From: Eubacterium sp.
GTDB taxonomy: Bacteria; Bacillota; Clostridia; Lachnospirales; Lachnospiraceae
Reading direction: 5' to 3'
DNA: 54,934 nt
Assembly (NCBI GenBank): GCA_017477505.1
Contig: JAFUVQ010000055.1
Location: 1 to 54,934, forward strand
Positions 19,224-41,395 of the stretch are shown piece after piece. How positions within the stretch are numbered: position 1 is the first letter of the stretch; every line of letters begins with the position of its first letter. Under the pieces are notes generated by a model, which did no database searches, was not told the DNA's origin, and was given only the letters and a program-made list of their open reading frames with translations. The translations under genes and the position numbers were made by a program.

Positions 19224-19466
19224 ATGGCATATGAAACAGATATTAAATGCTATGTTGACTATAATAAGAAGCTTCCTGAAGGTCTGCCGACTTTTATTCA
19301 AGAGTATGCAAAACAACTGGAAGAGTATGACAGTGAAGAGTACTACTTTGAATATGTAACTCTGGCCGATGAATTATATATCACAACAAAGGACCTTTAT
19401 GCAAAAGGCAGAATCAGCCTTAAGGACTGGGAAGATATAAAGTGGAGGTATGGAATCGATGGTTGA
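19224..19466 (+). CDS. Small protein paired with HipA-like kinase
   Basis: An 80-residue acidic protein (YAKQLEEYDSEEYYFEYVTL) with GAGGTGA before its ATG. Its last codons overlap the start of the kinase gene by 8 bases, so the pair is translationally coupled. The layout (small acidic partner first, HipA-like kinase second) resembles toxin-antitoxin operons, but the small protein lacks an HTH and matches no antitoxin I recognise. It could be a substrate or inhibitor of the kinase. Confidence 0.6.
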   Translation: MAYETDIKCYVDYNKKLPEGLPTFIQEYAKQLEEYDSEEYYFEYVTLADELYITTKDLYAKGRISLKDWEDIKWRYGIDG

Positions 19467-20509: not shown

Positions 20510-21073
20510 GTGTTCAGAGCTGATTTTACCGGACCAAAGAATGTCGCAGAACGTTTCAACTGTTCCGAATTAGAAGCTGCTCTGCTTAAGACAAAGGCAG
20601 AAGCGGCAAATCTGACCAAGAGTGAATATATAAGGGAACTGATATGTTCCTCGTTGCCGACCGAGGCACCGCCTAAGGAGTTCTATCTTGCAGTAAATGA
20701 TATCAATAAGATAGGTATCAATCTGAATCAGATAGCTAAAATGGCAAATACTAACCAGTATATCTCACAAGAGGATATAGAAGAGGTTAAGGCTTATGCC
20801 AAGATGGTTATTGATATGCTTGCTGATATAAAGATGACAGTTAATCAGCCTCGTCATTATTCAGCAACGATCATGGACGATTATGCTTATGCCAAGAAAG
20901 AAGCCAAGAAGAGGCATGAACCTATACCTGAGTTTGGTGACGATATATCAATGTATATAGACAAGCCTCAGTATAAGGATTATAAGGACTTTCCTGAAAG
21001 ACTCTACAAGCAGCGTGAAGATGAAATGATGTATGCTGAAGAAAATATAGGTGATGACGATGGCAGTTACTAA
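20510..21073 (+). CDS. mobC: MobC-type relaxosome accessory protein
   Basis: This 187-residue protein matches MobC: a ribbon-helix-helix-like N terminus (KAEAANLTKSEYIRELICSS) and the signature helix INKIGINLNQIAKMAN. MobC binds near oriT and helps the relaxase open the strands. I chose GTG 20510, 8 bases after AAAGGAG; an upstream GTG at 20501 lies inside that site. It overlaps the relaxase gene by 14 bases. oriT is expected close by, but I could not assign it. Confidence 0.85.
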   Translation: MFRADFTGPKNVAERFNCSELEAALLKTKAEAANLTKSEYIRELICSSLPTEAPPKEFYLAVNDINKIGINLNQIAKMANTNQYISQEDIEEVKAYAKMVIDMLADIKMTVNQPRHYSATIMDDYAYAKKEAKKRHEPIPEFGDDISMYIDKPQYKDYKDFPERLYKQREDEMMYAEENIGDDDGSY

Positions 21074-22637
21074 ACTGTGGCCGATAAAAGGCAGCATAAG
21101 CGGTGGTACGGCTTCGGTCAGAAAAGCAGTCGCATCTGTTACCGATTATGCGGAGAATCCTGAAAAGACACTTGCCAAGGGCTCCGGATCGGTTCAGAAT
21201 GCCGGCTCCACATATACGCTTTACATGAATAATGAATCTGGAGTGGATGCAACGATAGATAATGTCCTGTCCTACGTAGAAAGGGATAGCGCAACATACG
21301 ATAAGAAGTATGTTACAACGATAAACTGTACAGAGGAACATTCCATAGAAGAAATGATGGGGACGAAGCAGCGTTATAACGAACGTGGCAACCGGATATT
21401 ATGGCATGGATATCAGAGTTTCAAGCCCGGAGAGACTACTGCGGATCAGGCCCACAGAATAGGTGTGGATATGGCTAATAAACTGTGGGGTGAACAGTAT
21501 GAAGTGGTAGTGACTACGCACCTTGATAAAGAACATATTCACAACCATATAGTCATTAATTCTGTTTCTTTTTCAGATGGTAAGAAGTTTGACTGGGACA
21601 CGGAATATCCGAGAATGCAGAAAATGTCTGATAAGCTGTGTAAAGAGGCCGGGCTTTCATCAATAAAAAAGGATGAACTGTCAGGGCATTATCACAGAGG
21701 GGCTGTACGTGCGAAAGAGGAAGGAAGATATACGCTTGCCGAGATAACAAGAGAAGATATTGACTGCTGCATTTTCTGTTCATCTACCTATGAAGAGTTC
21801 CTTGGTATGATGAATGATAAGGGATACAGGATAAATACAGAGGGCAAATATGTAAAGGTATATCCACCGGGACATGACAAGCCTATCCGTATAGACAGAA
21901 GATGGGGAGATGACTACACAATGGATGCCATTAAAGACAGAATTGAGTTTTCGAGTGAACAAGAAACTCCGGCAGCAGAGATAAAACCGGCTGTACCTGA
22001 GGGGAAGATAAGTTATGACCATGATGATGACAGGCTGCTGCGTGCCATCACGAAGGATGTAATGTCAGGTGCAGACCTCTTCATAATGAAGATTCCATAT
22101 GCAACGCTTGAATACCTTCTCCGTGATACCGGGATATACATACCGGGAAAGTATATAGGCCGTGAGATATCAGGGCTTATGGTCGGTTTTGTAAAGTATC
22201 ATCTTGCAGCTGGTTTCTTTCGTAAGACACCGGGACAGATAGCACGGACACATTACCTTCTCAGAGAGGATCTGACGAAGCTTGATATGTATGTTGCAGA
22301 AACAAGGCTCCTGATCGAGAACGATATTACTACCGAGGATGTTCTTAACACATTTACAGCAGCAGAAGAAACAAAGCTGAAAAAAATGTATGATGAAAGA
22401 TCCCGGTTGCAGAACGTGATAAGAAGAGCAAAGGAAGAAGATAAACCGGACCTAAAAACAAAACTGAAACAGATGAATAAGGAAGTAGCAAAACAGAAAA
22501 AGAAGGTTGGGTACTGTAATGATATAAAAAAACGGTTGATAGATATACCTAGAAGAATCAGCGAAGCCGTGAAGCTACAGGAAAGACGTAAGGATGAAAG
22601 AACCAATTATTATTATAAATGGCAGTCAGACCGCTAA
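21060..22637 (+). CDS. MOB-family relaxase
   Basis: This 525-residue relaxase nicks oriT and pilots the transferred strand. It starts MAVTKLWPIKG, typical of clostridial ICE relaxases. It has a His-rich metal site at residues 154-163 (H154, H159, H161, H163 in HLDKEHIHNHIVINS). The C-terminal third is basic and coiled (IRRAKEEDKPDLKTKLKQMN). ATG 21060 is preferred over GTG 21051 and ATG 21054 on similarity of the start and spacing to AGGTGAT. It ends WQSDR; an Asp-Arg end is shared with four other proteins of this element. MobC lies upstream and PcfB downstream. Confidence 0.9.
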   Translation: MAVTKLWPIKGSISGGTASVRKAVASVTDYAENPEKTLAKGSGSVQNAGSTYTLYMNNESGVDATIDNVLSYVERDSATYDKKYVTTINCTEEHSIEEMMGTKQRYNERGNRILWHGYQSFKPGETTADQAHRIGVDMANKLWGEQYEVVVTTHLDKEHIHNHIVINSVSFSDGKKFDWDTEYPRMQKMSDKLCKEAGLSSIKKDELSGHYHRGAVRAKEEGRYTLAEITREDIDCCIFCSSTYEEFLGMMNDKGYRINTEGKYVKVYPPGHDKPIRIDRRWGDDYTMDAIKDRIEFSSEQETPAAEIKPAVPEGKISYDHDDDRLLRAITKDVMSGADLFIMKIPYATLEYLLRDTGIYIPGKYIGREISGLMVGFVKYHLAAGFFRKTPGQIARTHYLLREDLTKLDMYVAETRLLIENDITTEDVLNTFTAAEETKLKKMYDERSRLQNVIRRAKEEDKPDLKTKLKQMNKEVAKQKKKVGYCNDIKKRLIDIPRRISEAVKLQERRKDERTNYYYKWQSDR

Positions 22638-22654
22638 ATGAAAGGAGTGAGAAG

Positions 22655-23506
22655 ATGGATTCAGGTGTAAGAGAAGCTGAACAGATGCAGCAGACGGTAG
22701 TAAGGGCTGCAATCGGTGGTGCCGTCATGCTGATACGTGTCAGCGGACCGGCTTATAAATTCATTCAGGCTGCTGTTAACGGGCAGCTCGGACCGAGTGG
22801 AGAAATGAGTCTTAAGGCTATGCTGCAATCAGGTGAAGAACTGAGGGTTATACCTATGGTCGGAACTGATAACTTCAAGAGATTTATTGCAGCGTCAAAA
22901 GACTATGGTATTAAATATGCCGTAATGAGACGGACGGACAAAGAAACTCAGTTAGAACAGTATGAACTGATGGTATTTGCAAGGGATGCCTCAAAGATAA
23001 ACAGAATTATTGAAAAGTATGATATAGCAGCCGGAGGTCAGCTTCAAGGCTCTGGAAAAGTCATTAATGAAGAAGAACTGAGCAAGGACGAGATTATCAA
23101 GGATCTGACGGCCAACCGGGAAATAATGTCAAAGATGATGCAGCCAAGGGATAAGAGTGCGATTGTAAACCCCTCGATAGCTCCGGAAGAAAAAGACGAG
23201 AATCTCTCCGGAGCAAGATTGAGAAGTATTCATGATGTTGAAGAAGAACTCGCTTCTATCCATCGTCAGAAGAATATGCCGCCAAAGAAAAGGTTTTCTG
23301 TTCAGAAAGAAATTGAACTGTTACAGGAGAAGCAGAGTATGACAGCCTCAGATGAAAAGAGTCTTGCAAATGCCATGATAAATCCTAGTGATGCATCATC
23401 CATAGATAAGTATGCAGCTGAAGTGATCAGCCGGGCGGTTAAATCTGTTTATTCAGACCTTGAAAAAGCAAGCAGAGAGGAAGGAAATGCAATAAATGGA
23501 ACCTGA
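22655..23506 (+). CDS. pcfB: PcfB-family (DUF3801) relaxosome protein
   Basis: This 283-residue protein has the DUF3801 pattern: LKAMLQSGEELRVIPMVGTD, then FKRFIAASKDYGIKYAVMRR and VFARDASKINRIIEKY (about residues 48-120). PcfB-type proteins bind the relaxase and the coupling protein in Gram-positive conjugation. AAAGGAGTGAG precedes ATG 22655; an earlier in-frame ATG inside the relaxase gene is rejected. It overlaps the next gene by 11 bases. Confidence 0.87.
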   Translation: MDSGVREAEQMQQTVVRAAIGGAVMLIRVSGPAYKFIQAAVNGQLGPSGEMSLKAMLQSGEELRVIPMVGTDNFKRFIAASKDYGIKYAVMRRTDKETQLEQYELMVFARDASKINRIIEKYDIAAGGQLQGSGKVINEEELSKDEIIKDLTANREIMSKMMQPRDKSAIVNPSIAPEEKDENLSGARLRSIHDVEEELASIHRQKNMPPKKRFSVQKEIELLQEKQSMTASDEKSLANAMINPSDASSIDKYAAEVISRAVKSVYSDLEKASREEGNAINGT

Positions 23507-24455: not shown

Positions 24456-24943
24456 AGAATATTCTGTTATTTCATTTTCAGATATGTTATATTGATCATG
24501 GTGAAGTATCGGACGATTACACTAAGGCACTTGAAGAAGAAGTCTCTGAGAGTAAGAATAATACGGAATGGAGGCGAGATTATATGACATTATCACTAAA
24601 AATTAAAGAAGAAAGGAAAGAGGCACGCCTTGAAGGCCTTGAGGAAGGAAAGACGATAGGGCTTGAGGAAGGAAAATCGATAGGCCTTGAGGAAGGAAAG
24701 ACGATAGGGAGATCAGAGGGGGCAAATGCGTTCCGTGAGGAAATGATTGAGCGTTTCTTTGAGGATAACCTGCTTACTGATGAACAGATAGGCAGCTATG
24801 TTTTCCTTGATGCTTCAGAAGTAAAAAAACTTAGAGAAGAATACAATAAGACGAAGCTCCAAACTGCTGGTGATAATATGCGTAATGAGATTAAGAAGGT
24901 CAACAGGAGAGGCTTCGATTTTAATGATCTTTTAGACTTATAG
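24452..24943 (+). pseudogene. 5'-truncated Rpn/PD-(D/E)XK transposase-family gene
   Basis: The 163-residue frame corresponds only to the C-terminal part of recombination-promoting nuclease (Rpn) family proteins, usually about 300 residues: DDYTKALEEEVSESKNN, then EWRRDYMTLSLKIKEE, then LEGLEEGK repeats and a helical tail. The PD-(D/E)XK nuclease core is absent. Its ATG overlaps the stop of the preceding gene in the usual ATGA way, so the tail may still be translated. This looks like decay after insertion into the transfer operon, or a domesticated tail protein. An intrinsic terminator follows. Confidence 0.72.
24638..24709 (+). repeat. Three 24-base tandem repeats (LEEGKTIG)
   Basis: Three 24-base units starting CTTGAGGAAGGAAA encode LEEGKTIG, LEEGKSIG and LEEGKTIG. 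Such in-frame EG-rich repeats are typical in Rpn tails and expand by slippage. Confidence 0.85.
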
Positions 24944-24969: not shown

Positions 24970-25003
24970 AAGGACACGATTATTCATGATTGTGTCCTTT
25001 TTG
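24970..25003 (+). terminator. Intrinsic terminator before virD4
   Basis: AAGGACACGAT pairs with ATTGTGTCCTT, followed by TTTTT. An ATG at 24986 in the virD4 frame lies in the loop, which argues that the real virD4 start is downstream. The hairpin separates relaxosome genes from the secretion-channel genes. Confidence 0.8.
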
Positions 25004-25027
25004 CTTGCAAGAAAGAGGGTGATTTTA

Positions 25028-27013
25028 TTGCTTGCTGCAAGAAAAAAATCCATGTGGTTAGTATGTTTTATTCTTTATCCATTTATCATGCTGACTGTGA
25101 TAAGGTTTGTTCCCCACATGGGTAACGGTCTGAATGAACTTATAGAGAATATGAACTATGAAATGACTACAAGACCATTTGCTTTTTCAATCTGTGACCG
25201 GACCATACCTGCTGTCCTGTTCACATCCTTGTTATATTTCATAGGTTTTTATATCTATATATCTTCCATGAAGAATACAAGACCGGGAGAGGAATACGGT
25301 TCTGCTAAATGGGTTGAGCCGAGAAAAATCACAAGAAGGTTTTCTGCAAAGGGGATAAAGGACAATATTAGCTTTTCTCAGAAAGTATTTATGCTGCTGA
25401 AATACGATTTTGATGTGTTCAAGAAGAAATCTAACGTGTTTTTCAGTGTCGGAAATGGCAAAACCGTAGCTAAAGAGGATTTGGAAAGGTATAAAGACCG
25501 GGAAATATACCGGATAGACAATACCATAGGTATTCCAAAGTGGCGGTATAACATGATCCTTTCTGAAAATGTGAGGATAAGCCTTAAAACAAAGCAGTCT
25601 AATATCAATACTCTGATACTTGGTGGCTCCGGTCGTGGTAAATCAAGAGGATATATAGTCCCTAACATAATGCAGCTTAACAGTTCTATGGTAATAACTG
25701 ATCCAAAAGGAGAAATATGCAGAATGGTTGGAAGGCTGCTTAAGAAATTCGGATATGATGTAAGGGTACTGGATCTGAGACACCATGAGAAGTCGCATGG
25801 TTACAATCCATTTGTATATTTCCGAGAAGATAATGATGTACTTCTTTTCGTTAATAATATGTGGGCTGCTATGGAAGACAAGACGGCTTCATCTCAGGAT
25901 CCGTTCTGGCCTGAGATAGCAAAGACAATGCTCATGAGTTTCATACTGTATCTATTTCATTTTGCTCCGGAAGAGGAACAGAACTTTGATAATGTCCTCA
26001 GACTGATGCATCTGATAGACATTGAAGAAGAAGGGCAGCAGAAAGAAGCAGCTCCCGGCATACTGGATCTGATATTCAATGAGATACCGCATGATGATAC
26101 GGCTTATGGGTATTATAAGGAGTGGAGTTCGGCTAAAGGACGTACATTAGCATCCGTATATGTAACGCTTTCGGCAAAGATGGCTGTATTCAACCTCGAA
26201 AGCATGAGAAAGCTTACTTTTAAGGATGAAATGAATATACTGGACCTTGCTACGAAGCCTGTAGCTATATTTATGATACTTCCTGATGATAATGCAGTAT
26301 ATAACTTCCTTGCCGGAACACTTTACACGCAGATATTTCAGCAGCTTTATGATTATGCAGATAATGTGGCTGATGGTCCTCTACCTCGTCACGTGAGATT
26401 TTATATGGACGAGTTTGCGAACATAGCACTTCCGAACGATTATCAGAAGATTCTTTCTACGGCACGTTCAAGAAATATGAGCTTCGTAATAGTTCTACAG
26501 GACAAGCAGCAGATTGAGGCTATATTTGAGAAGTATTACAAGACTCTATATGGCAATTGCAGCTTTTATCTGTTTCTTGGCTCTCGTGAGTATGATACGT
26601 GCGAATATTACAGCAAGCTGCTCGGAAAGGAAACGATAGTAGTAGAGAACTTCACTAAGAATTATGGCAGAGGCGGAGGAATGAGCAAGGCTGAAACGAG
26701 AGTAGGCCGTGAACTCATGACACCGAATGAACTTATGGAAATGGGTGAGAATAAGTGTATTATCTATGCAAATGATCAATCGGGTTGTCAGGATATTAAG
26801 ACGGATATGACTACCCATCGGTATTACCGATATATTTCAGATGGTGCTAGAAAAGCTGAAAATGCTTACGACTGGGGAGAGGATAATATATCAGAGGGTT
26901 CAGTACAGATACTAGATGATGATTATCTCGGAAATATCGTTTCCATGATGGCAGACGAGGATAATGACTGGGAGATACTTGATCCTGAATATGTTGAATC
27001 ACTCATAGCATAA
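25028..27013 (+). CDS. virD4: VirD4/TraG-type coupling protein
   Basis: The type IV coupling protein is a membrane ATPase that hands the relaxase-DNA complex to the channel. Two N-terminal membrane segments (WLVCFILYPFIMLTVIRF; VLFTSLLYFIGFYIYI) are followed by the Walker A motif GGSGRGKS (residues 199-206), STDPKG-like TDPKGEI, and the Walker B region FYMDEFANI. I chose TTG 25028, with AGAGGGTG upstream; ATG 25052 is the alternative, and ATG 24986 lies in a terminator. The 661-residue length is normal for the family. It is followed by the channel genes in canonical order. Confidence 0.93.
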   Translation: MLAARKKSMWLVCFILYPFIMLTVIRFVPHMGNGLNELIENMNYEMTTRPFAFSICDRTIPAVLFTSLLYFIGFYIYISSMKNTRPGEEYGSAKWVEPRKITRRFSAKGIKDNISFSQKVFMLLKYDFDVFKKKSNVFFSVGNGKTVAKEDLERYKDREIYRIDNTIGIPKWRYNMILSENVRISLKTKQSNINTLILGGSGRGKSRGYIVPNIMQLNSSMVITDPKGEICRMVGRLLKKFGYDVRVLDLRHHEKSHGYNPFVYFREDNDVLLFVNNMWAAMEDKTASSQDPFWPEIAKTMLMSFILYLFHFAPEEEQNFDNVLRLMHLIDIEEEGQQKEAAPGILDLIFNEIPHDDTAYGYYKEWSSAKGRTLASVYVTLSAKMAVFNLESMRKLTFKDEMNILDLATKPVAIFMILPDDNAVYNFLAGTLYTQIFQQLYDYADNVADGPLPRHVRFYMDEFANIALPNDYQKILSTARSRNMSFVIVLQDKQQIEAIFEKYYKTLYGNCSFYLFLGSREYDTCEYYSKLLGKETIVVENFTKNYGRGGGMSKAETRVGRELMTPNELMEMGENKCIIYANDQSGCQDIKTDMTTHRYYRYISDGARKAENAYDWGEDNISEGSVQILDDDYLGNIVSMMADEDNDWEILDPEYVESLIA

Positions 27014-28603: not shown

Positions 28604-28924
28604 ATGAAATCGGTAGAAATGAATCAGAGCTTAATGAGCGTAACAGAGAAATTCTATGGTTTTGAGATGCGACAGATAGTGGATGCGATACTTGCCGGAG
28701 GCGCATCCCTTGCTGTAAATTTCATGCTGCCACCGGAACTGGGTATGTTCAGGGGGATAGTTGCATCATTTGTGGCTGTTCCCTTTATCGTCATAGCTAT
28801 AAAGGATTTTTATGGCATGAAAGGACTTCGGTTAGGTGTAGCAATAATAAAATCAGTCATGAACTCAAAACCATTAGTATTTAAATCTGAATATATAGAT
28901 GAAAGTGTGGTGAAGAAAAGGTGA
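28604..28924 (+). CDS. prgI: PrgI/VirB3-like membrane protein
   Basis: This 106-residue protein has two close membrane helices (QIVDAILAGGASLAVNFM; GIVASFVAVPFIVIAIKDF), preceded by the MSVTEKFYGFEMRQ segment typical of the PrgI family, the Gram-positive VirB3 equivalent. ATG 28604 follows AAAGGAG by 5 bases; an ORF start at 28568 lies before the pre-gene motif and is rejected. It overlaps the virB4 GTG start by four bases, the usual PrgI-VirB4 coupling. Confidence 0.87.
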   Translation: MKSVEMNQSLMSVTEKFYGFEMRQIVDAILAGGASLAVNFMLPPELGMFRGIVASFVAVPFIVIAIKDFYGMKGLRLGVAIIKSVMNSKPLVFKSEYIDESVVKKR

Positions 28925-31248
28925 TACTTGCGGGTAAAAGAGGATATATAAAGGATAAATTCAGAGTTAATACGATACAACAGGCAATCCCTACATTCAA
29001 GACTTACACTTCCGGTATGTTTGAGTTCAGCGGAGGCCTGTTTTCTAATACATATGTGCTTAAGGATACGGATTTTGCATCAGAATCCGAAGCTGAACAG
29101 GAGAATTTCTTCAAGAGATATTCAGAGATACTTAATTCATTGGATCCCAAAAGTACATATAAGATAACGATATTCAATAGGAATATCAATTATAGGAAAA
29201 CTTCATACATAGAACTGCCTACTAATCTTAACGATTCCTACGACCATATAAGGTCTGAATACAATGCCATGAGACGAAAGAATAGGGAAATGTCACATGG
29301 CAAGATACAGGAGAAGTATCTTACAGTTACGACTCCATCCAAGAAACCGGAGTTTGCAGAACAGTATTTTGACCGAGTGGAAAAAGATTTTAACAAGCGT
29401 TTCAACGACATAGGTTCAGGTATTACATCTATGGGAATAAATGAAAGGCTTGAGATATTCTATGATTTCTACAGATGCGGTCAGGAACAGTATTATGATT
29501 ATGACGATACGGCTGCAAAGAAGAGAAGAAGCGGATATAAGGATTATATATGCCCTACTTATCTTGATTTCAAAAATCTTGATTTTGATATAGGAAAGAA
29601 GTTTGGAAGAGTATTCTTCATGAGTGACTGGGGGCATAGACTTAAGCCGGAAGTGCTTACTTTGCTTATGGAACTTAATGCAAACATGATGCTCTCTGTG
29701 GATCTTATACCATTTTCATCAGAAGAGATCCGAAGGATACTTGAAGATACGGAAATGTCTGCTGAATCTAACGTAGATAGATGGTCACAGAGACCGGGGG
29801 CAGAAAAGAGAAGGTATTCCGTACTTCCTATGTCAATGAGAAAGGACAGAGATATCGTAGATACATGGAATCATGATGTATACAAGCGCAATCAGAAGAT
29901 ATTCTATGCAGCAGTCACAATAGTTGTTCTTGCTGACAGCATGGCTCAGTTGGATGACTATTCAGAAAGTATCATAGAAACAGGAAATGACTGCGGATGT
30001 CATATTGACGTAATGGGATTCCGTCAGAAAGAAGGCCTCAATACTTTACTCCCATATGGACCGAGATTTACAGTCAATTACCGTGATGTGACAACTGAAA
30101 TGCTTGCTACTGTCATGCCTTTCAATTCGGTTTCAATCAACCACCTTACCGGTATTCCATACGGAATTCAGGAAGAGACTAAACAGGAAATGCTCATAGA
30201 CAGAAGGCTTCTCAATAATGGTAATGAGTGGGTAGTAGGAGTGTCTGGTTGTGGTAAATCATTTAGGGTAAAGCTGACTGCTCTTATGGAGGCTCTTATC
30301 ACTAATGGAGATATTCTGTTCGTGGATCCACACGGAGAGTTTACAGGGCTTACTAAAGCGTTGGGTGGAACGGTAGTACACCTTGGCGGTGCCTCTGAGG
30401 ATATAATTAACGCTATGGATATGTGTAAAGGCTATAGTGACGGTTCTAATGATGTAAATACCAAGTTAGGGCAGCTCACATCACTTTTTCATGCGATACT
30501 TGACAGAGAATACACGAAACCGATGGATAGTATCATGATACGTTGTGCGAAATATCTTCTTGAAAACTATGCTCATAATGATTACATGGGCCTTCCACCG
30601 ACATTACTTGACCTATATAACTGCATTAAGTATCAGGAAGAAACAGAAGCTCAGAGACTTGCGCTGCTGATTGAGCCTTACATTTTCTCACTCAAATGCT
30701 TCTGTGGGCAGACAAATATAGACATATATAATCGTATAGTGTGCTATGATCTTACAGGCCTTGATGAAAACCTTTGGGATGCCGGTATGTCAGTGGTCAT
30801 GGATAGCATAAAGAACAGGCTCATAATCAATCGTGGCGCACAGATACCTACATATATCAAAATAGACGAGGTAGGACGTTTTCTTGATAATCCGTTCCTT
30901 ACACAGACATTTGAATCATTTTATGCTGAATGCAGAAAGTATGGCGGTTATATCACAGGAATAGTACAGAATGCCTCTAAGCTTCTCAGGAACGAAAGAG
31001 CAAGGAATATGCTTTCTAACGCAGAGATTGTTGTCATGCTCAGACAGTCATCTATGGATGCTATGGAGCTTAAGAATATATACAGCCTGTCGAAGACACA
31101 GGTTGAACGACTGACAAGGGCAGAAGAAGGCTGCGGTATATTCAAATCAGCTAATCAGTTTATCAACTTTGATGGACGTATTGAAAAAGGTTACATCTAT
31201 GATCTGGCAAATACAAAACCGGATCACAGTAAGGCTATCCTCTCATAG
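28921..31248 (+). CDS. virB4: VirB4/TraE-type conjugation ATPase
   Basis: This 775-residue ATPase energises the transfer channel. Walker A is GVSGCGKS at residues 440-447 and Walker B is in YIKIDEVGRFL; the segment YGGYITGIVQNASKLL is characteristic of VirB4. Translation starts at GTG 28921, overlapping the prgI stop. The gene is intact and of typical length. The N-terminal half is the assembly domain. Confidence 0.93.
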   Translation: MILAGKRGYIKDKFRVNTIQQAIPTFKTYTSGMFEFSGGLFSNTYVLKDTDFASESEAEQENFFKRYSEILNSLDPKSTYKITIFNRNINYRKTSYIELPTNLNDSYDHIRSEYNAMRRKNREMSHGKIQEKYLTVTTPSKKPEFAEQYFDRVEKDFNKRFNDIGSGITSMGINERLEIFYDFYRCGQEQYYDYDDTAAKKRRSGYKDYICPTYLDFKNLDFDIGKKFGRVFFMSDWGHRLKPEVLTLLMELNANMMLSVDLIPFSSEEIRRILEDTEMSAESNVDRWSQRPGAEKRRYSVLPMSMRKDRDIVDTWNHDVYKRNQKIFYAAVTIVVLADSMAQLDDYSESIIETGNDCGCHIDVMGFRQKEGLNTLLPYGPRFTVNYRDVTTEMLATVMPFNSVSINHLTGIPYGIQEETKQEMLIDRRLLNNGNEWVVGVSGCGKSFRVKLTALMEALITNGDILFVDPHGEFTGLTKALGGTVVHLGGASEDIINAMDMCKGYSDGSNDVNTKLGQLTSLFHAILDREYTKPMDSIMIRCAKYLLENYAHNDYMGLPPTLLDLYNCIKYQEETEAQRLALLIEPYIFSLKCFCGQTNIDIYNRIVCYDLTGLDENLWDAGMSVVMDSIKNRLIINRGAQIPTYIKIDEVGRFLDNPFLTQTFESFYAECRKYGGYITGIVQNASKLLRNERARNMLSNAEIVVMLRQSSMDAMELKNIYSLSKTQVERLTRAEEGCGIFKSANQFINFDGRIEKGYIYDLANTKPDHSKAILS

Positions 31249-31266: not shown

Positions 31267-32973
31267 ATGGATGATATAAAGACAAGTGATTATATAGGTG
31301 AATATGAGTTTAAACGGTCTGACGAAATAAAACACAATGAAACTGACCTGAAAAACAATGATGGATATATAAAGCATTATACCGATGCTGAAAAGCCGGA
31401 AGAAGCTATATATCACGGAACATCTGATATCAAGTATTCCGATAATTCCAAGGGGACGGAAACATTTCAGAAGGGAAGGGATGAAGCTTTTTCCGGAAGA
31501 TCCGACAGCACAAAAAAAACTGACCGTAGTGATTCTAAGGGCAGCATACCTATAATAAATGGCTCGGCAGCATCTTCTATGGCAGTAAATAAGGATGGGA
31601 AAGACCATACAAACAAATCATACACAGAAATGCTGTATGATTTCATGAATAAGGAAGACGATATTCCTGAAAAAAAGACTAAAGGTAAGAATGCTGATAA
31701 GAATAAGGGTGTATCATTTGCAAAAATAGCCGGATATGTTAAGGATAAAGCTTCAAAAGCTGCTTCAGATATGCAGCCGGATACGGACTATTCAAAAAAG
31801 AGCAAGGGAGATATACAGGGCGGCATAGATAAGGAAGTAAAGGGTTTTAAGGCTTCATTTGTATTGATGCTGCCGCTTGTCCTCGGTATAGCCGGTGCTA
31901 TCTTCGGAATAATAGTTCTTTTTGCCGGTATAATACCGGCTGTTATTATTTCAAATGTATCAAACACTAATCTACATGGCGGTGAACAGGCTATATGGCA
32001 GTATCTTTCTAGTGAAGGCTTTTCTGATTATGCCATAGCTGGTGTTCTCGGATGCTACGGAAGTGAGTCAGGACATTCTGCTGATACTGTAGAAGGTGAA
32101 TATGTTGGCGGCTTTCCGCCAAGGAATGCTATTATGGCAGATCTGAATGGATACTGTGTAAATTATCTGTTTCCAACTTATGCTAGACAAGGGCTTGCTA
32201 TAGCACATTCAGGATATCAGTATAATGGTCTGTATTATCCGGGATTAGGTCTTGCACAATGGACCGGTCCAAGAGCATATTATCTGCTGCATTATGATCC
32301 CAGTACACGTACTGTTTCAGATGATTATTATAATAATCAATGGAATGATTTATATGTTCAGCTTGATTTTATGGTACACTATGAAAAGGGAGAGGCGTTT
32401 TGGAGTAATTATAAGAATATACAGCCGACAGCCGGAGAGTCTGACGAAGATTGTGTCAGAAGAGCTACAGAAATGTTTTTCAGTTCGTATGAGCTACCCG
32501 GAAATCATTCTCAGAAATTCCTTGGACCTCGTCAGAAACACGCAGTAGAAGTTTTTAATCAGGCTAAGACATTTGGTGGTGACGGTGCTTTCATATGGCC
32601 GTGTCCGGCAAGCCACAATGTAACATCAGGCTTTGGTGGGAGAGCATCACCGGGCGGTATAGGTTCTACTAATCATAAAGGTATAGATATCGGAGCTGTT
32701 ACCGGAACAGAGGCTGTAGCAGCTGCAAACGGAACTGTCGTTTATACCGGATATAACGATGCCAGAGGAAATTATGTAAAGATAGATCATGGAGGTGGAT
32801 ATGCAACTATATATCAGCACCTTTCAGGCTTTAATTGCAGCGAAGGTGATATAGTCAATGCCGGGGATGTAATAGGCTTTGTAGGCAGTACAGGACACTC
32901 TACAGGACCGCATCTTCACTTTGAGATAATAGTGGATGGTACACCGGTTGATCCTATGCAGTTCTTTAATTAA
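31267..32973 (+). CDS. Type IV secretion cell-wall hydrolase: lysozyme-like plus M23 peptidase
   Basis: A 568-residue VirB1-like protein. A charged, disordered cytoplasmic N terminus (1-195) is followed by one membrane segment (about 197-230), then a phage-tail-lysozyme-like domain (about 235-400: AIAGVLGCYGSESGH, GLGLAQWTGPR) and a LytM/M23 endopeptidase with HKGID (His470, Asp474) and HLHFE (His549, His551). Both strands of the peptidoglycan mesh, glycan and peptide, can be cut to make room for the channel. AGGGGGTG precedes the ATG. The unusually long cytoplasmic tail could dock on VirB4/VirD4. It is the last gene of the transfer operon. Confidence 0.9.
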   Translation: MDDIKTSDYIGEYEFKRSDEIKHNETDLKNNDGYIKHYTDAEKPEEAIYHGTSDIKYSDNSKGTETFQKGRDEAFSGRSDSTKKTDRSDSKGSIPIINGSAASSMAVNKDGKDHTNKSYTEMLYDFMNKEDDIPEKKTKGKNADKNKGVSFAKIAGYVKDKASKAASDMQPDTDYSKKSKGDIQGGIDKEVKGFKASFVLMLPLVLGIAGAIFGIIVLFAGIIPAVIISNVSNTNLHGGEQAIWQYLSSEGFSDYAIAGVLGCYGSESGHSADTVEGEYVGGFPPRNAIMADLNGYCVNYLFPTYARQGLAIAHSGYQYNGLYYPGLGLAQWTGPRAYYLLHYDPSTRTVSDDYYNNQWNDLYVQLDFMVHYEKGEAFWSNYKNIQPTAGESDEDCVRRATEMFFSSYELPGNHSQKFLGPRQKHAVEVFNQAKTFGGDGAFIWPCPASHNVTSGFGGRASPGGIGSTNHKGIDIGAVTGTEAVAAANGTVVYTGYNDARGNYVKIDHGGGYATIYQHLSGFNCSEGDIVNAGDVIGFVGSTGHSTGPHLHFEIIVDGTPVDPMQFFN

Positions 32974-34946: not shown

Positions 34947-35114
34947 ATGGGGAACATTAAAATAATAAAAAGAAGGGGAAGACCCAAGAAAAAGTCAGCC
35001 CCTTCCGGGGATATAGCTGGTCAGATGACGATATTTGATTACATAGATCCTGAGACCGAATTACAGACTAAGGAGAAAGAGAATGTCACATACAGACGAG
35101 ATACTTTTATTTGA
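34947..35114 (+). CDS. 55-residue AT-hook protein with clamp-binding-like motif
   Basis: ATG 34947 follows GGAGAGGGTG at 7 bases, and the frame is open for 55 codons. It overlaps the next gene by 32 bases in another frame. The N terminus contains KRRGRPKKK (residues 8-16), a textbook AT-hook core (GRP flanked by basic residues) that binds the AT-rich minor groove. Residues 26-32, QMTIFDY, resemble the QLxLF-type motif with which proteins dock on the DNA sliding clamp. The tail is acidic. A small DNA-tethering factor is suggested; both motif readings are inference from short matches. Confidence 0.55.
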   Translation: MGNIKIIKRRGRPKKKSAPSGDIAGQMTIFDYIDPETELQTKEKENVTYRRDTFI

Positions 35115-35426: not shown

Positions 35427-37040
35427 ATGGAGGTTTATGTAGGCAAAGCCTTGCTAGATCATTTGTCAGAACGAAGCATTGATAACTATAAGAACAGGTT
35501 TGCCTATGAAAACCTGCTCAAATATGCTAGGGATTCTTCAAATCCAAGAGTCTATTGTCTCTATGGACTTAGAAGAACTGGTAAAACTACAATGCTTTCT
35601 AAGGCTATTCTTGATCTTAATGATATTAAGAACTGTATTTATGTGACATGCGAAAAAGGCGATAAGATGTCGGATCTTAAAGAAGTTCTTAATGAGCATA
35701 ATAAAAAGTATATTTTTATTGACGAGGCCACAAGACTATCGAACTTTATTGATACATGCAGTGTACTTGCGGATAAATATGCATATTCCGGAAGAAGGGT
35801 TTTTATGACCGGAACAGATTCACTGGGTTTTCTTATTGCCAAAAATGATGAATTGTTCGATCGTGTTATCATGCACCATACAACATATATATCTTTTATG
35901 GAGTTTCACTATCTGCTGGATAAGAATATTGAAGAATATATCAGATATGGTGGTACTCTCAGTCTTGAGGGTAATATGTATAATGATCCGGCCAAGGAAC
36001 CTTTTGAGGAGTATTTGGATGGGGCTATCGTAAGGAATATTCTTCATACATTAAAATACTGGGACTATGAAAGACATTTAGGTGTTCTGCAGAAGCTTTA
36101 CGACGATGATGATTTAGAGAGTGCTATCAGAAAAGTGGTTGAACGTGAAAACAGAGATTTTCTTGCAGCTACGATCAACAAGAACTTTAAGGGAGAAATA
36201 AGAGGTTCTTTGATCGATCTGCTTAACAAGAGTACAGATGTTCAGACAGATGCACTTGAAAATAAGGAACTAAATGACAGAACTAGGATAATGCTTGGCA
36301 TTCATGAACCTTTATTCAATACTGTTTCTCAGAGTGAAACGGATCAGATCATCAGGTATCTATTAGATATGGACGTAATGATAAAGGGATATGACGAAGG
36401 AGAATATATCTTTACGCAACCCGGATTACGGTTCTATCATGCGAAAATTTTAAGTGATTCACTGGAAAGAGATGATAAGTTCAATTTATTGTCGGATGCT
36501 GATAAGGCAGTAATAAAGACAAAGCTGTTTGAAAGTATCAAAGGGCAGCTTCTGGAAGATATAGTGTATACAGATCTTATTAAAAAGTATAAAGGTATGT
36601 TTAATGTGATCAAATACAAATATCCGTCCGGAGGTGAGTTTGACGCTGCAGTCTGTGATCTTAAGAACCAAAAAAGTATTATATTTGAAGTGAAATACTC
36701 AAAAATTAAAGATTCTCATCAGGTTAGTCATCTAAGGAATCAGGAAATTTGCGATGCATTTGAGAAAAAGACGGGAACAGGAATAGTCTCCAAAGTAGTT
36801 ATATATAATGGTGTGTCTGATGCTGCTGATGAAATCAAATACATAAATGCAGAAGACTTTTTGATTCATACAGATTCGTATGTAAATAAGCTGTTATCCG
36901 GTGATTTTTTCCTAGGGAAAAGGAAAAGCGTTATTTCCCATATTGAAGAGCTTAAGAAAGAAAGCGTGTCGGAGAAAGCTTATCAGGAAAGCAATATTTC
37001 AACCAATATTCATAAACCGACAGATGGTATTGATAGATAG
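35427..37040 (+). CDS. AAA_14/DUF4143-like ATPase with nuclease-like C terminus and shared tail
   Basis: A 537-residue ATPase. Walker A GLRRTGKTT is at residues 47-55, Walker B IFIDE at 96-100, and the sensor segment FMTGTDS follows. The C-terminal part has GGEFDAAVCDLKNQ then IFEVKYSK, the acidic and Lys positions of PD-(D/E)XK-like folds in DUF4143 proteins. Residues about 497-537 form an extra tail with KRKSVISHIEELK, matching the tails of the two kinases at 38271 and 40199, and ending GIDR. The gene has its own consensus promoter. The cellular role is unknown; defence, anti-defence or effector roles are all possible. Confidence 0.82.
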   Translation: MEVYVGKALLDHLSERSIDNYKNRFAYENLLKYARDSSNPRVYCLYGLRRTGKTTMLSKAILDLNDIKNCIYVTCEKGDKMSDLKEVLNEHNKKYIFIDEATRLSNFIDTCSVLADKYAYSGRRVFMTGTDSLGFLIAKNDELFDRVIMHHTTYISFMEFHYLLDKNIEEYIRYGGTLSLEGNMYNDPAKEPFEEYLDGAIVRNILHTLKYWDYERHLGVLQKLYDDDDLESAIRKVVERENRDFLAATINKNFKGEIRGSLIDLLNKSTDVQTDALENKELNDRTRIMLGIHEPLFNTVSQSETDQIIRYLLDMDVMIKGYDEGEYIFTQPGLRFYHAKILSDSLERDDKFNLLSDADKAVIKTKLFESIKGQLLEDIVYTDLIKKYKGMFNVIKYKYPSGGEFDAAVCDLKNQKSIIFEVKYSKIKDSHQVSHLRNQEICDAFEKKTGTGIVSKVVIYNGVSDAADEIKYINAEDFLIHTDSYVNKLLSGDFFLGKRKSVISHIEELKKESVSEKAYQESNISTNIHKPTDGIDR

Positions 37041-37048
37041 TAGTAATT

Positions 37049-37080
37049 AAGAGCGTAGCTGTATCAGTTATGCTCTTTTT
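37049..37080 (+). terminator. Terminator of the ATPase gene
   Basis: AAGAGCGTAGCTG, TAT loop, CAGTTATGCTCTT (13 pairs with G-U), then TTTTT continuing into CAG, so the T-tract again forms TTTTTCAG. Confidence 0.85.
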
Positions 37081-37121
37081 CAGTTATATAAATGCAGTAT
37101 CTTTGTCAAAAGTGTTAAGTT

Positions 37122-37150
37122 TTGACTATGTTATAAAAATGTAGTAAAAT
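37122..37150 (+). promoter_or_regulatory. Promoter of the recombinase operon
   Basis: TTGACT (37122) and TAAAAT (37145) with a 17-base spacer, 51 bases before the 65-residue gene. Confidence 0.65.
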
Positions 37151-37201
37151 AGCGTTATCAAGCATGGTCATAACATATATTCATAAATAAAGGAGGCTTT
37201 T

Positions 37202-37399
37202 ATGAAAATAGAACGTAAATATACTGATGAAGAAGGTAATGAAATTATCGAAACAAAAGATGGATATGTTTTTGTAAATGGGATCTGCGTAGTAGAACCT
37301 GGAACTGATGCAGATTTTGATCGACATGCGGTTGAAGTACAAAATGGAGACGGATATTATAATTCATCTGGAAAATTCGTGAGGTATCTTAATGAGTAG
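37202..37399 (+). CDS. Hypothetical 65-residue protein
   Basis: A small acidic beta-rich protein (ETKDGYVFVNGICVVEPGTD) with AAAGGAGG before its ATG. It overlaps the recombinase gene by 8 bases, so the two are co-translated. It may be a partner or regulator of the recombinase. No family recognised. Confidence 0.6.
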   Translation: MKIERKYTDEEGNEIIETKDGYVFVNGICVVEPGTDADFDRHAVEVQNGDGYYNSSGKFVRYLNE

Positions 37400-38063
37400 A
37401 CAACTTACTTTTGAAGAAATTGAAGAGTACAAACGATTAACGAGAAATACCGAACAGATTCAGTTAAAAATGGATGAACTGATGAATCAGCCGATTGTAT
37501 ATGGATATGCAAGAGTAAGTACCAGAGGTCAGGCCAGAGATGGAAATAGTCTGGAATATCAGGAAGAACAGCTTAGAGCCGCAGGTGCTGAAAAGATATA
37601 TATAGATACTTATACCGGAAAGGTATCAGATCGTCCTGAACTCGATAAGCTGAAGAAGAAGTTACAGAGTGGTGATACACTTGTTGTTACAAAGCTAGAT
37701 AGGGTAGCAAGGAGCGTAACAGCCGGATCTGAGCTTATAGATGAGCTTAATAATAGAGGTGTAAAGGTCAATATTCTTAATATGGGTATTATAGATGATA
37801 CTCCGACAGGTAAGCTTCTAAGAAATGTGATGCTTTCCTTTGCAGAGTTTGAGCGAGATCTTATTGTACAGCGCACTCAGGAAGGCAAGGAGATAGCAAA
37901 GAGAAAGCCTGGATATAGAGAGGGCAGACCTAGAAAGTACTCTAAAAAGCAGCTAGAACACGCTATGGAGCTGCTTAATGATTATTCCTATAAACAAGTA
38001 TCTGAACTTACCGGAATAAGCGTATCAACGCTTGCTAGGACAAAGAGAGTTTCCGTAAACTGA
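37392..38063 (+). CDS. Small serine recombinase (resolvase/invertase) with N-terminal extension
   Basis: This 223-residue protein has the complete resolvase catalytic domain: YARVSTRGQ with nucleophile Ser43, TKLDRVARS, and LLRNVMLSFAEFERDLIVQR. A C-terminal HTH follows (YKQVSELTGISVSTLARTKR). The Ser normally sits near residue 10, so about 33 extra residues (EIEEYKRLTRNTEQIQLKMD) precede the domain as a probable coiled coil. It could resolve multimers or invert a segment; no invertible repeats were recognised nearby. It is too short to be a large serine integrase of the ICE. Confidence 0.92.
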   Translation: MSRQLTFEEIEEYKRLTRNTEQIQLKMDELMNQPIVYGYARVSTRGQARDGNSLEYQEEQLRAAGAEKIYIDTYTGKVSDRPELDKLKKKLQSGDTLVVTKLDRVARSVTAGSELIDELNNRGVKVNILNMGIIDDTPTGKLLRNVMLSFAEFERDLIVQRTQEGKEIAKRKPGYREGRPRKYSKKQLEHAMELLNDYSYKQVSELTGISVSTLARTKRVSVN

Positions 38064-38077
38064 AAGGAGAGTATGTT

Positions 38078-38203
38078 ATATACAAGAAGTTAGAAGTGGA
38101 TTTTGAAATAGATGAACAGATAGAGATTCTTCGGAATTATTATGTCAGAAGAAGCCTCAGAGAACAGATAGCAGAAGGAAGGAATAAATATAATTACTAT
38201 TAA
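38078..38203 (+). other. Possible small ORF with non-canonical start or frameshift
   Basis: After AAAGGAGAG (38064-38071) a 41-codon frame (IYKKLEVDFEIDEQIEI onward, ending NKYNYY) looks coding but starts at ATA. An ATG at 38073 is in another frame and stops after six codons. Either a one-base frameshift broke the gene, or it uses a rare start. Confidence 0.3.
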
Positions 38204-38270
38204 GAAATGAGTCAGGAGATTTGTCTATTAAATAATCAAATGATTAGATTACAGGAGAGAGGGGATTAGT

Positions 38271-39890
38271 ATGTATTACCTAATGAATAAAGATAGTAAA
38301 GTGCTTTCATTTCAGGTGGATACGAGTAGTGAACTATCTGAGGATGTGTCATTTAAGTCTGTTAACATAGAGGGTAATTTACCATATGGGTTTCATAGCA
38401 TTACTTCTTGGATAGAAAGCAGAAAAGCTTCAAAACATAATGCTCATTTAAAGTCAGTCATGGAGCAACTTGGGTGTAATGATAATGAGGGGTTTATAAG
38501 GCTTACTCACGCTGTAGGAATAAATGATACGTTTTGGATTAAAAGTGATGAGGACGAGATAAGTTGGAATGATGTTTCTTTATATAAGAATCAGTTTTCT
38601 GATGTAATTTCACAATTGGCATTTGAGGGAACAGGTCTGTATGGGGAAAGGTTTTCTTCTACATCTCCGGAACTCTCTTGTGAAGGATCTTTCCGAAAGT
38701 GCTTTAGGAAAGAGAGTGTAAAAGGGGAATTTGGAAGCAATATTTTTTTATATAAACGTGGTGGTGATTTGGGAGAGGGGTTAGAACCATATTGCGAAGC
38801 ACTTGCCTCTGAAATAGCAGAGATTGTATCGCCTGCACTCTCATCGGTAAAGTATGATTTATGCTTCTTACATGGAAAGTTGGCTTCAAAATGTAATGTT
38901 TTTACTAATGAAAATTTTGGATACGCTTCATTTTCAAAACTACACGACTCAAAAACGTATTCTTTTGAAGATGTAAGAGATTTTTACATTAATATCGGAT
39001 GTGAACAGAGTTTCCGGGAAATGCTTGTAATTGATTCGTTGTGCTTTAACTTAGATAGGCATAGTGGGAATTATGGGGTGATTTTTGATAATGATTCATT
39101 GGAAATTAAGGGGATGTCTCCGGTTTTTGATTTCAATCTTTCAATGCTACCATATGTAAGCATGACTGAGTTTAAAAATATAGGAGACAAGCTGATAGAT
39201 TATTCACCTAAACTTGGGAATGATTTTACTCGTATGGGACAGATTGCTACGAATGACATAATCCGTGACAGATTGAAGGATATTGTTGATATAAAGTTCC
39301 GATTCAGAGGAGATGACATCTTTACAGAGGAGAGGGTAGTCCAATTAGAAAATATCATTCAAAAACAGGCTGCTGCAATCCTGTCTAACAATAAATTACA
39401 GACGAAAGATGTGTTTTTTTCTCAAAAAAAGTTTAATAGTGAAAGAATAAAAAAAGAGGCATCGGTAGCTTCTGAACTGATGAAAGAGTTTGATGAATGT
39501 ATTGATCCTGCTGAGTTGAATGATGCTACTTTTTCAAGCGTATGTGACACAAGTGAAACGGTTCAATTATACTATGAAAATGATTCATATCTACTTACGA
39601 TAGATTTTCTTAATAAAAAAATCTGCTTGCAACAAAATGCGCTAAAAATATCTTTGAATGAACTAAAAGAAAAAACTCCTGATTTCTTTAATGATGTTAT
39701 TTTTATTACAAAAAAACTCCAAACGTTCTTACAAGATAAGGGTGAGATTTTTGTTAATGTTCAGGAGGCAAGAAGTAAAAAACGCAAAAGTATAGTTAAA
39801 CATATAGCTGAGTTGAAGGAACAACAACATAGTTCTTTTTCTGGTCATGAGAACAGTCCTGTGTGGGATACGGATTACAGAAGTTTCTGA
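38271..39890 (+). CDS. HipA/CtkA-like kinase with shared C-terminal tail
   Basis: A 539-residue protein with the HipA-type catalytic loop NLDRHSGNYGV (Asp262), metal motif PVFDFNLSM, and upstream GSNIFLYKRG for the nucleotide Lys. The N-terminal ~150 residues (LPYGFHSITSWIESRK, NDTFWIKSDEDEISWNDVSL) match the other kinase at 40199, so these two are paralogues. About 170 residues follow the kinase core, then the tail KKRKSIVKHIAELKEQ (from 503), shared with the ATPase at 35427. AGAGGGG precedes ATG. Growth control or effector activity is inferred from the HipA relation. Confidence 0.82.
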   Translation: MYYLMNKDSKVLSFQVDTSSELSEDVSFKSVNIEGNLPYGFHSITSWIESRKASKHNAHLKSVMEQLGCNDNEGFIRLTHAVGINDTFWIKSDEDEISWNDVSLYKNQFSDVISQLAFEGTGLYGERFSSTSPELSCEGSFRKCFRKESVKGEFGSNIFLYKRGGDLGEGLEPYCEALASEIAEIVSPALSSVKYDLCFLHGKLASKCNVFTNENFGYASFSKLHDSKTYSFEDVRDFYINIGCEQSFREMLVIDSLCFNLDRHSGNYGVIFDNDSLEIKGMSPVFDFNLSMLPYVSMTEFKNIGDKLIDYSPKLGNDFTRMGQIATNDIIRDRLKDIVDIKFRFRGDDIFTEERVVQLENIIQKQAAAILSNNKLQTKDVFFSQKKFNSERIKKEASVASELMKEFDECIDPAELNDATFSSVCDTSETVQLYYENDSYLLTIDFLNKKICLQQNALKISLNELKEKTPDFFNDVIFITKKLQTFLQDKGEIFVNVQEARSKKRKSIVKHIAELKEQQHSSFSGHENSPVWDTDYRSF

Positions 39891-40198
39891 GTTTGTTAAT
39901 GATTGATGCTGTGTGTGGAAGTATTCCTTATTTCTTCAGACAGTTGGAACGGGGGATTGGGGAACTCCCCAACAAGCTGGAAATTTACAAAATGCGATTC
40001 GTCAGAAATCGCATTTTGTGAAGGTTTCCGTTGCTTGCAAAATCTCGGACACCACTACGGACACCTTAGCATCTTGTACTGTCATAGCTTCAAAGACGGT
40101 GGAGTACAAACTGAAAAAAATCTGATGGTGGAGTTCCCGGGCCTCCGTGTACAAAATGGAATGGTTTTAGATGGTTAGATTGATGGGGGGATATAAGC
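39891..40198 (+). other. Structured intergenic region between the two kinases
   Basis: This 308-base stretch holds TTGGGG-AACT-CCCCAA (39957-39972) and a perfect 13-pair hairpin ACAAAATGCGATT/AATCGCATTTTGT (39987-40019) with a 7-base loop and no T-tract. GGAAA/TTTCC outer arms enclose the second hairpin. Two short overlapping frames here are not protein-like. It may be a structured leader or small RNA of the downstream kinase gene. Confidence 0.4.
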
Positions 40199-41395
40199 AT
40201 GAAACTGGATACAAATATAATCAGAATCAACGGTTATAAAAGTTCATCAAGATATACTCTGATGCATAAGGATATTTCTCTGATCGACATAGATGAGGAT
40301 AAGGGAGTATTTGATGTACATGATAATAATAAGGATCTGTTACCATATGCATTAAGGAGATCCAATTTAAACTATAATCACTTTTACAACTGGGCTTCGC
40401 TCCGCAGTCTGTTACTTGATCGAAAAAATTCAAAGCTGCTATTAAACACTTGTAATTTGCCTCAGGATGATAAATTTGAAATATCAAAAGCCTGTAAATT
40501 GATTTCGATAGAAGATTGTTTCTGGATCAGGGAAGGTGATGAAGAGTGGGAAAATGTAAATCTGCGAGAGAACTCTTTATCTAAAGCAATATCTCAGATT
40601 GCACTCAACGGGGAGAGCATAACTATCACTGGTGATATTTCTACACCTGAATTCACTACTCAGGGATATTCACCAAAAGCATGGGTCCGAGAAGAAGATG
40701 GCCTATATCTTTATAAAAAGAGTACGGACCGGTATGAGAGTGAAAAGGAAGTCCTTGCTAATGATATATTAGAAGCTTTAGGAATACCTCACATAGTTTA
40801 TGGCATGCAAGCAGATAAAATTTGCAAATGTAAATGCATGACTAATGAGAAGTATAGTAGGCTTACGTTCCGGGAGTACGCTACCTATGCAAAAAACAAT
40901 GGTATGAATCCGCTGACGTTGATCAACGAAAAATTCAGTCTGTATTTCTTTCGGATGGCTGCAATAGACTATGTATTAGCTAACACGGACCGGCATCCGG
41001 GAAACTGGGGATTCTATGTCAGTAATGATACAGGACAGATTATTGCTCCGCATCCTTTGTTTGATCATAACCTTGCTTTTGATGAAATATCCTTCAATCC
41101 TGAGAGCAGATATATTCCGGCTCCAGCATTTACATATGTGGACCTTGCTAGGGCTGCTATAAATGAATATGGGCTTGACCTGAGCAGATTCTATAGTATT
41201 CCTGAGTCACGGTTTGAAGAGATTAGTATTTCTTATAAGATGATAGATAGACGGATCCGGGAAATACAACCGGTTTATAGTAATAAAAGACCGAGTATCG
41301 TGCAGCATATAAAAGAGTTAGAAGCTGCAAGACAAAGAAACCTTTCAGACAGTACATCAAAGTCTGTTTCTAATGATATTTTCAGAGATAGGTGA
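40199..41395 (+). CDS. HipA/CtkA-like kinase paralogue with shared C-terminal tail
   Basis: A 398-residue paralogue of the preceding kinase, lacking its ~170-residue insert before the tail. The catalytic loop is NTDRHPGNWGF (Asp264) with PLFDHNLAF; upstream are DCFWIREGDEEWENVNL and GLYLYKKS. The tail NKRPSIVQHIKELEAA starts at residue 362, about 37 residues before the end, the same distance as in the other kinase. It ends FRDR. The ATG is close behind GGGGGGAT. The gene ends shortly before a strong terminator, and is the last gene of the ICE-like cargo. Confidence 0.83.
   Translation: MKLDTNIIRINGYKSSSRYTLMHKDISLIDIDEDKGVFDVHDNNKDLLPYALRRSNLNYNHFYNWASLRSLLLDRKNSKLLLNTCNLPQDDKFEISKACKLISIEDCFWIREGDEEWENVNLRENSLSKAISQIALNGESITITGDISTPEFTTQGYSPKAWVREEDGLYLYKKSTDRYESEKEVLANDILEALGIPHIVYGMQADKICKCKCMTNEKYSRLTFREYATYAKNNGMNPLTLINEKFSLYFFRMAAIDYVLANTDRHPGNWGFYVSNDTGQIIAPHPLFDHNLAFDEISFNPESRYIPAPAFTYVDLARAAINEYGLDLSRFYSIPESRFEEISISYKMIDRRIREIQPVYSNKRPSIVQHIKELEAARQRNLSDSTSKSVSNDIFRDR

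Follow-up and report, generated by a model that had tools for sequence, protein, structure and literature searches.

A common C-terminal tail on an ATPase-nuclease and two HipA-like kinases of a clostridial conjugative element: a candidate recruitment module for a type IV secretion system

Protein substrates of the VirB/VirD4 type IV secretion system (T4SS), such as VirE2 and VirF, carry short, basic, C-terminal signals that are read by the coupling protein, and relaxases are obligate substrates of conjugative transfer. How the conjugation machines of Gram-positive bacteria choose their protein substrates is little known. In Bartonella, the Fic toxin VbhT was made a conjugation-delivered protein by gaining the BID domain of a relaxase through terminal reassortment (PMC5675462). 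Here we analyse a stretch of 54,934 nucleotides from Eubacterium sp. (Lachnospiraceae; GenBank assembly GCA_017477505.1, contig JAFUVQ010000055.1), hereafter the window, which carries a conjugative element whose cargo includes an AAA_14 ATPase with a nuclease-like part and two HipA-like kinases, all three ending in the same kind of tail (coordinates in Table 1). The data support the likeness of the tails, their add-on nature, a motif in common with the DUF3801 protein PcfB, and an association with T4SS-bearing elements. The tail is probably a C-terminal recruitment module for clostridial conjugative T4SSs of the CD1115/CD1110 type, a proposal in which the receptor, its binding and the transfer itself are what we infer. 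A literature search, with most subscription journals outside its coverage, found no publication on such a tail or on the function of PcfB; in a T4SS review from December 2025 (PMC12857230), the main text has no instance of "translocation signal" or "PcfB" and one of "secretion signal". A further hit, "Pcfb" in PMC12909850, is an unrelated promoter name and was set aside.

Likeness of the three tails and their position in the proteins

The ATPase matches AAA_14 (E 2.4e-17) and, in its nuclease part, DUF4143 (E 0.0018, below the Pfam cut-off). Kinase 2 matches HipA_C (E 2.7e-5, likewise below the cut-off), and kinase 1, which has no Pfam match, is called HipA-like from PADLOC model PDC-M03A and its homology to kinase 2. 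The original prediction, made by inspection of this DNA, had described the kinases as paralogues, which BLASTP bore out (E 2e-21), and the ATPase as unrelated to them. In agreement with the latter, the tail was the best local match and the sole notable likeness between the ATPase and kinase 1 (E 0.009); ATPase and kinase 2 gave no significant pairwise match, and the tail was not reported there. The common segment had been placed at residues 498, 504 and 363, 36 to 40 residues before the C terminus, and frames and positions are as claimed, with 40, 36 and 36 residues to the end. The same segment is therefore carried by unrelated proteins of one element, as would be the case for a C-terminal T4SS signal.

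Seven of the 21 columns in an alignment of the three tails are invariant. When a model was built from any two of them, the third was the best new match, with E 0.005, 0.00023 and 0.0054 for the three models, in a set of 1,862 proteins drawn from 26 element contigs or loci, 30 regions around PcfB genes and 20 chromosomal stretches. Of 14 residues compared, 9, 7 and 9 are identical in the three pairs of tails, and four codons differ in every pair; because the codons have drifted while the residues were kept, the tails are not recent copies of one another. Judged from these comparisons, their likeness is due neither to chance nor to recent copying. A profile of the window tails only (A1) found nothing above chance in 397 genomes of the family and 61 of the genus beyond the window's own three, and the exact form KRxSIxxHIxEL occurred in these genomes only in the window element.

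Homologues of the three proteins generally end where the core ends. The ATPase was present in 14 of 200 family genomes, the window genome included, and the motif was absent from all 13 complete homologues outside the window (one truncated homologue is excluded from this count), which end at the core, near window residue 480, or at most about 20 residues past it. Two further homologues from the genus likewise end near the core without the motif, a third, partial one being excluded. A search with kinase 2 matched 36 genomes, the window's included; from the 29 loci cut outside the window (matches without a locus being excluded), all 28 homologues having a stop lack the tail. Three orthologues of kinase 1, including one nearly identical pair, also end at the core without a tail. 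The original prediction had named a tail that is a fixed part of the ATPase core fold as the finding that would speak against a signal, and the ATPase homologues read do not have one. In the AlphaFold model of the ATPase, a confident core runs to about residue 490, followed by a free helix at 502-524, directly after S501, and then by disorder, although the helix itself is predicted with low confidence (predicted local distance difference test, about 50). By these comparisons, the tail is a separable C-terminal addition outside the core of all three proteins.

The same kind of helix in PcfB and in other conjugative elements

A helix of the same kind was found outside the core in 12 of the 12 longer-type DUF3801 proteins read. 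Its forms include KKRFSVQKEIELLQ in the window, ERKSVIKELEEN in G398, NRPSVVKELEGY in G402 and NREDIRQTVENFKRE in G420 (our handles for related elements), with the common pattern [KR]-x-[S/D]-[VI]-x3-[IL]. In the model of the window PcfB, a core of about residues 24-165 is well predicted and is followed by a disordered linker and a helix at 228-254 that starts after S227; both PcfB and the ATPase are modelled with the helix lying outside their folded core. PF12687 matches none of the three cargo proteins, which have the helix alone in common with PcfB. A model of the 12 PcfB segments, run against 582 proteins, ranked the tail of kinase 2 second and that of kinase 1 joint third when PcfB sites were disregarded, and in the reverse comparison PcfB tails were among the next matches of the window-tail models, below significance (E 0.8-7 in the 1,862 proteins). 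A relaxase matched by the PcfB-segment model in G175 was not counted, as the match appears to be part of the relaxase's own coiled region.

Searches with the relaxase and VirB4 yielded about a dozen related elements; a VirB4 profile found no relatives in viral contigs. The element in G420 encodes an orthologue of the window ATPase (48% identical), followed by a gene for a Fic protein, and these two share a different tail (REDIRATIERFKKE.. and KEDIRSTIERFKKE..). The altered form, which we call REDIR, occurs jointly in the PcfB (NREDIRQTVENFKRE), the ATPase (SREDIRATIERFKKE) and the Fic protein (DKEDIRSTIERFKKE) of G420. The two cargo tails score 55 and 53 against their own PcfB and at most 21 against 11 other PcfBs. 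Since six codons differ among the 10-11 identical residues, the likeness of PcfB and cargo in G420 is not that of a recent copy. In G430, a DUF6036 nucleotidyltransferase ends NRSSIKSLIEDLKKD...FSGIEQ, resembling the end of the window ATPase, ..TDGIDR. The other related elements showed no cargo with such a tail; a regular-expression scan was too narrow for the cargo tails of G420 and G430, so that this absence rests on reading the listed protein ends, in one case part of them.

Tails of a KPSV type were found in classical clostridial elements, in line with a tentative suggestion in the original prediction that KPSVL-type ends occur in other clostridial element proteins. From 30 DUF3801 loci, 26 PcfBs were recognised, and all 26 have the motif. 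The distance from its start to the stop is 30-38 residues in 24 of these, as in KPSIRKALAVFRDKAKQLNANREKVKNKERGIDR, and in the remaining two the frame runs on for 102; 22 of the tails are distinct. Up to 40 kb was then fetched around 30 PcfB places, with PcfB recognised in 21 of the 30 regions and genes called simply as longest open reading frames, and a loose motif, fixed beforehand from PcfB and the window, was looked for near the ends of other proteins. It was found in 22 of 821 non-PcfB proteins against 6.0 expected, yet also in 17 reversed ends, and is therefore not specific. A strict motif, [KR][PKRTA]S[IV]x3[LI] at 26-45 residues from the end, which was chosen after the loose matches had been seen, was found in 14 of the 821, where the remainder of these proteins predicts 1.2, and in one reversed end. 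In a chromosomal control of 20 stretches it was found in 0 of 306 proteins, with 0.23 expected (element vs. control, Fisher 0.011).

The 14 strict-motif tails start 29-35 residues from the end, and their bearers fall into seven unrelated clusters once the last 45 residues are removed. The families are polyvalent/ArdA/ArdC proteins (7), LPD1, DUF6674 (2), a MobA/MobL relaxase and three that match no Pfam family; several of the bearers (ArdA, ArdC, LPD, YodL) belong to the polyvalent class, and SpoVG-like and DUF5688 proteins have the loose form only. On the conjugative plasmid pAPRE01, looser tails are present on one of two annotated PcfBs and on the MobQ relaxase (KDSITKTI.., KESIIKKI..). The original prediction expected the motif to be confined to the C termini of otherwise unrelated proteins, mostly in T4SS-bearing elements. 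In partial agreement, the KPSV-type relatives lie at the C termini of unrelated proteins of such elements, and in the long PcfBs the motif is internal. For this reason it is better called a docking helix common to cargo and a T4SS accessory protein than a cargo-only signal.

DUF3801 was found in 56 of 150 family genomes. A profile of 28 KPSV-type tails (A4) matched 45 of the 150 (E <= 0.05), 43 of which also have DUF3801, an association that is partly circular at the level of genomes because PcfB itself matches A4. At E <= 1e-3 there were 106 matches: 62 are inside a DUF3801 gene or no more than 470 bp from one, and 29 others lie within 35 kb of one on the same contig (0.5-31.7 kb); one is farther away, 13 are on other contigs of DUF3801 genomes and one is in a genome without DUF3801. 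On the predicted restriction to elements with conjugation genes, checked here in part, these figures are divided: nearly all matches lie in DUF3801 genomes, though 14 of the 106 are on other contigs or farther away and one is in a genome without DUF3801. In DNA not read before, 19 of 20 of the best non-PcfB matches start 30-34 residues from a stop; the twentieth, in a MobQ-like frame that stops early, starts 22 residues from it. All 20 fit the strict motif, as is expected of A4 matches, and many are copies of a few same proteins.

A possible recruitment module and its alternatives

In the module, a basic residue would precede an N-capping Ser or Asp and a short amphipathic helix, with some 20-25 flexible residues after it; the full pattern is [KR]-x-[S/D]-[VI]-x3-[IL]-x2-[L/F]-K. 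One receptor would read the helix at the coupling apparatus, either VirD4 itself or VirD4 in complex with PcfB. A single receptor at this place is suggested because PcfB, which is encoded near VirD4 (in the window, two genes apart), carries the same helix. Cargo enzymes may gain the tail by end-swapping, and the tail would bring its cargo to the channel, most likely for delivery along with the DNA. Candidate cargo comprises the ATPase-nuclease and HipA-like kinases of the window and, elsewhere, Fic and nucleotidyltransferase proteins, ArdA/ArdC polyvalent proteins and a MobQ relaxase. PcfB has its helix in common with proteins that would be useful in a recipient. The presence of the tail on a MobA/MobL relaxase, and of its looser form on the MobQ relaxase of pAPRE01, may favour transfer over a mere scaffold. 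We also put forward, tentatively, a broader possibility: the tail may be a portable address label by which a VirD4-PcfB sorting complex delivers a set of proteins (antirestriction proteins, kinases, Fic proteins, ATPase-nucleases) with the DNA, matched variants of helix and receptor such as REDIR forming private channels and new effectors arising through tail swaps.

Several results weigh against such a recruitment module. A4 matches nothing in the window genome and so leaves the window tails undetected; that genome is among the 13 of 56 DUF3801 genomes without an A4 match. A core model of the KPSV tails lists the window kinases at E 0.76 and 3.1 and the ATPase not at all, and a profile-profile comparison (hhalign) aligned the two kinds at the motif with modest similarity (E 9.4e-5, probability 59). 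With the 12-PcfB-segment model, the tail of the ATPase came no higher than about 22nd, and cargo from G420 and G430 was not among the 45 best matches listed. The notion that each cargo tail matches the PcfB of its own element was rejected, being clear only in G420: the G430 tail ranks 2 and the window tails rank 4, 2 and 9 of 12, not closest. Tail-bearing cargo was found in only three of the related elements read, and the kinase-1 orthologue of G430 has a longer, different, motif-free C-terminal extension. The G420 ATPase and Fic tails are identical at 99 of 108 nucleotides (92%), a recent copy. The motif was in none of 16 pCF10 proteins, PcfB included. The window relaxase and three other recognised relaxases lack the helix, and among the four MobQ relaxases read, the strict and a loose form occur once each and two have neither. 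To these are added the reversed-end matches of the loose motif and the late choice of the strict one.

Because A4 misses the window tails, regarding them and the KPSV tails as one kind rests on pattern, spacing and PcfB. The weak cross-model scores, together with the empty A1 search, are what would be expected if the KRxSIxxHIxEL and KPSV tails were separate inventions and the window case a private tether of one element. We regard this as quite improbable, since C-terminal spacing and core pattern are equal, the hhalign alignment centres on the motif, and PcfB has both kinds of context. It is somewhat less improbable, though still unlikely, that the tail tethers its bearers to some common partner other than the channel (relaxosome, replication protein or PcfB scaffold), with the enzymes acting in the donor cell. 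The internal motif of long PcfBs would fit such a tether, as would the relaxases that lack a tail; we know of no evidence that PcfB is transferred; and the ATPase, HipA and Fic families are candidates for phage defence (PADLOC PDC models) that could work in the donor. Against a donor-cell role stand the MobQ relaxases and the antirestriction and polyvalent proteins among the tail bearers; in PMC5512222, polyvalent proteins are placed among those brought by invading elements, which fits use in the recipient.

Two further explanations have little to recommend them. The G420 ATPase and Fic tails demonstrate that copying between neighbours happens, and all tails could in principle be functionless by-products of such recombination; this is very unlikely given window tails that have drifted in DNA while keeping their residues, and a distance from motif to stop that is fixed across unrelated families. 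Being short, exposed and at a constant distance from the C terminus, the helix might also serve as a stability or proteolysis tag, a degron or adaptor site common to element proteins. Such a tag does not predict near restriction to DUF3801 genomes or presence in PcfB, and a host tag might appear on chromosomal proteins too, where none of 306 had the motif, though only 0.23 were expected; we give this explanation very little credence. Recruitment to the T4SS remains the account that we favour. If it is correct, a tail readable from sequence would make substrate prediction and protein-delivery tests in Tn1549-related elements direct, PcfB would have a testable role, and the entry of polyvalent proteins into recipients would become a mating experiment.

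Neighbouring genes and comparison with described systems

Table 1. Features of the window element (positions in the window).
Feature	Position	Strand	Remarks
AAA_14 ATPase with C-terminal nuclease-like part, cargo 1	35427..37040	+	537 residues; Walker A GLRRTGKT, EVK motif
ATPase C-terminal tail KRKSVISHIEELK...GIDR	36918..37037	+	residues 498-537, 40 residues to end
HipA-like kinase 1, cargo 2	38271..39890	+	539 residues
Kinase 1 C-terminal tail KRKSIVKHIAELK...	39780..39887	+	residues 504-539, 36 to end
HipA-like kinase 2, cargo 3	40199..41395	+	398 residues
Kinase 2 C-terminal tail KRPSIVQHIKELE...FRDR	41285..41392	+	residues 363-398, 36 to end
PcfB family protein (DUF3801)	22619..23506	+	PF12687 E 2.6e-17
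Internal helix copy in PcfB, KKRFSVQKEIELLQEK	23285..23332	+	residues 223-238
VirD4-like coupling protein, CD1115 family; candidate receptor	24986..27013	+	NF045973 E 2.1e-122
VirB4-like transfer ATPase, CD1110 family; T4SS marker	28921..31248	+	
Relaxase of the window element	21051..22637	+	without KRxS helix; ends ..WQSDR
M23-domain T4SS cell-wall protein	31267..32973	+	tail-bearing cargo genes downstream

Other genes lie among the cargo. A serine recombinase (37392-38063) is located between the ATPase and kinase 1, and a short frame 5′ of kinase 1 (38039-38203, +, stop to stop) ends VRRSLREQIAEGRNKYNYY, which resembles the helix and lies 18 residues from its end. The gene 3′ of kinase 2 (42104-43465), which we take to be a transposase, has a resembling gene downstream of the cargo in the related element G404. 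Small proteins with a QMTIFDY motif are encoded among the cargo genes both in the window (34948-35107, +) and in G404 (contig C35, 34354-34614). The KRxS tail is absent from a third HipA-like protein (19450-20430) and from two Fic proteins (246-1094 and 2018-2734) of the window element. Similar ends, ..RTGFLDL and ..RRGFDFNDLLDL, were seen on two unrelated-looking proteins, 19450-20430 and 24452-24943. The window genome contains a second related element (contig G000:C67; L170, L148, L149), whose relaxase is 61% identical and in which no transfer genes were seen before the contig end.

Protein ends of the form hydrophobic-[DE]-Arg, a pattern chosen after seeing the window, occur in 22 of 1519 element-region proteins and 0 of 343 chromosomal controls; in the window they are found on 2823-3440, 13506-17849, 18094-19101 and 35427-37040. 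Such an end may be a second part of the signal. A terminal Arg by itself was rejected as a real signal: it is found on 9 of 29 window proteins and 29 of 306 controls and is raised in several elements and absent from G420 and from one of the two G402 elements.

The sequence of the tails differs from that of the VirE2 and VirF signals, the conserved feature here being an N-capped helix at 30-40 residues before the end. The relaxase translocation signals TSA and TSB (PMC12624023) likewise recruit a substrate to VirD4. Unlike the portable tails on many proteins considered here, they are domains of the relaxase. The polyvalent proteins of conjugative elements (PMC5512222) form a class that includes several tail bearers; the main text of that paper has no use of "C-terminal tail", "C-terminus", "secretion signal" or "conserved motif". 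PcfB shares the helix with the cargo, and in classical elements its entire tail is of the cargo kind; the cargo lacks the DUF3801 core domain. No BID model is among the Pfam matches of the tail bearers, and the tail is modelled as one short helix. As in VbhT and the Beps, a toxin-type enzyme here carries a C-terminal segment matching the element's own transfer proteins. BID is a folded domain common with relaxases, whereas the present segment is a helix of about 15 residues with a flexible end, common with PcfB and found in Firmicutes. By analogy, the REDIR element looks like the outcome of a VbhT-type event with a much smaller module.

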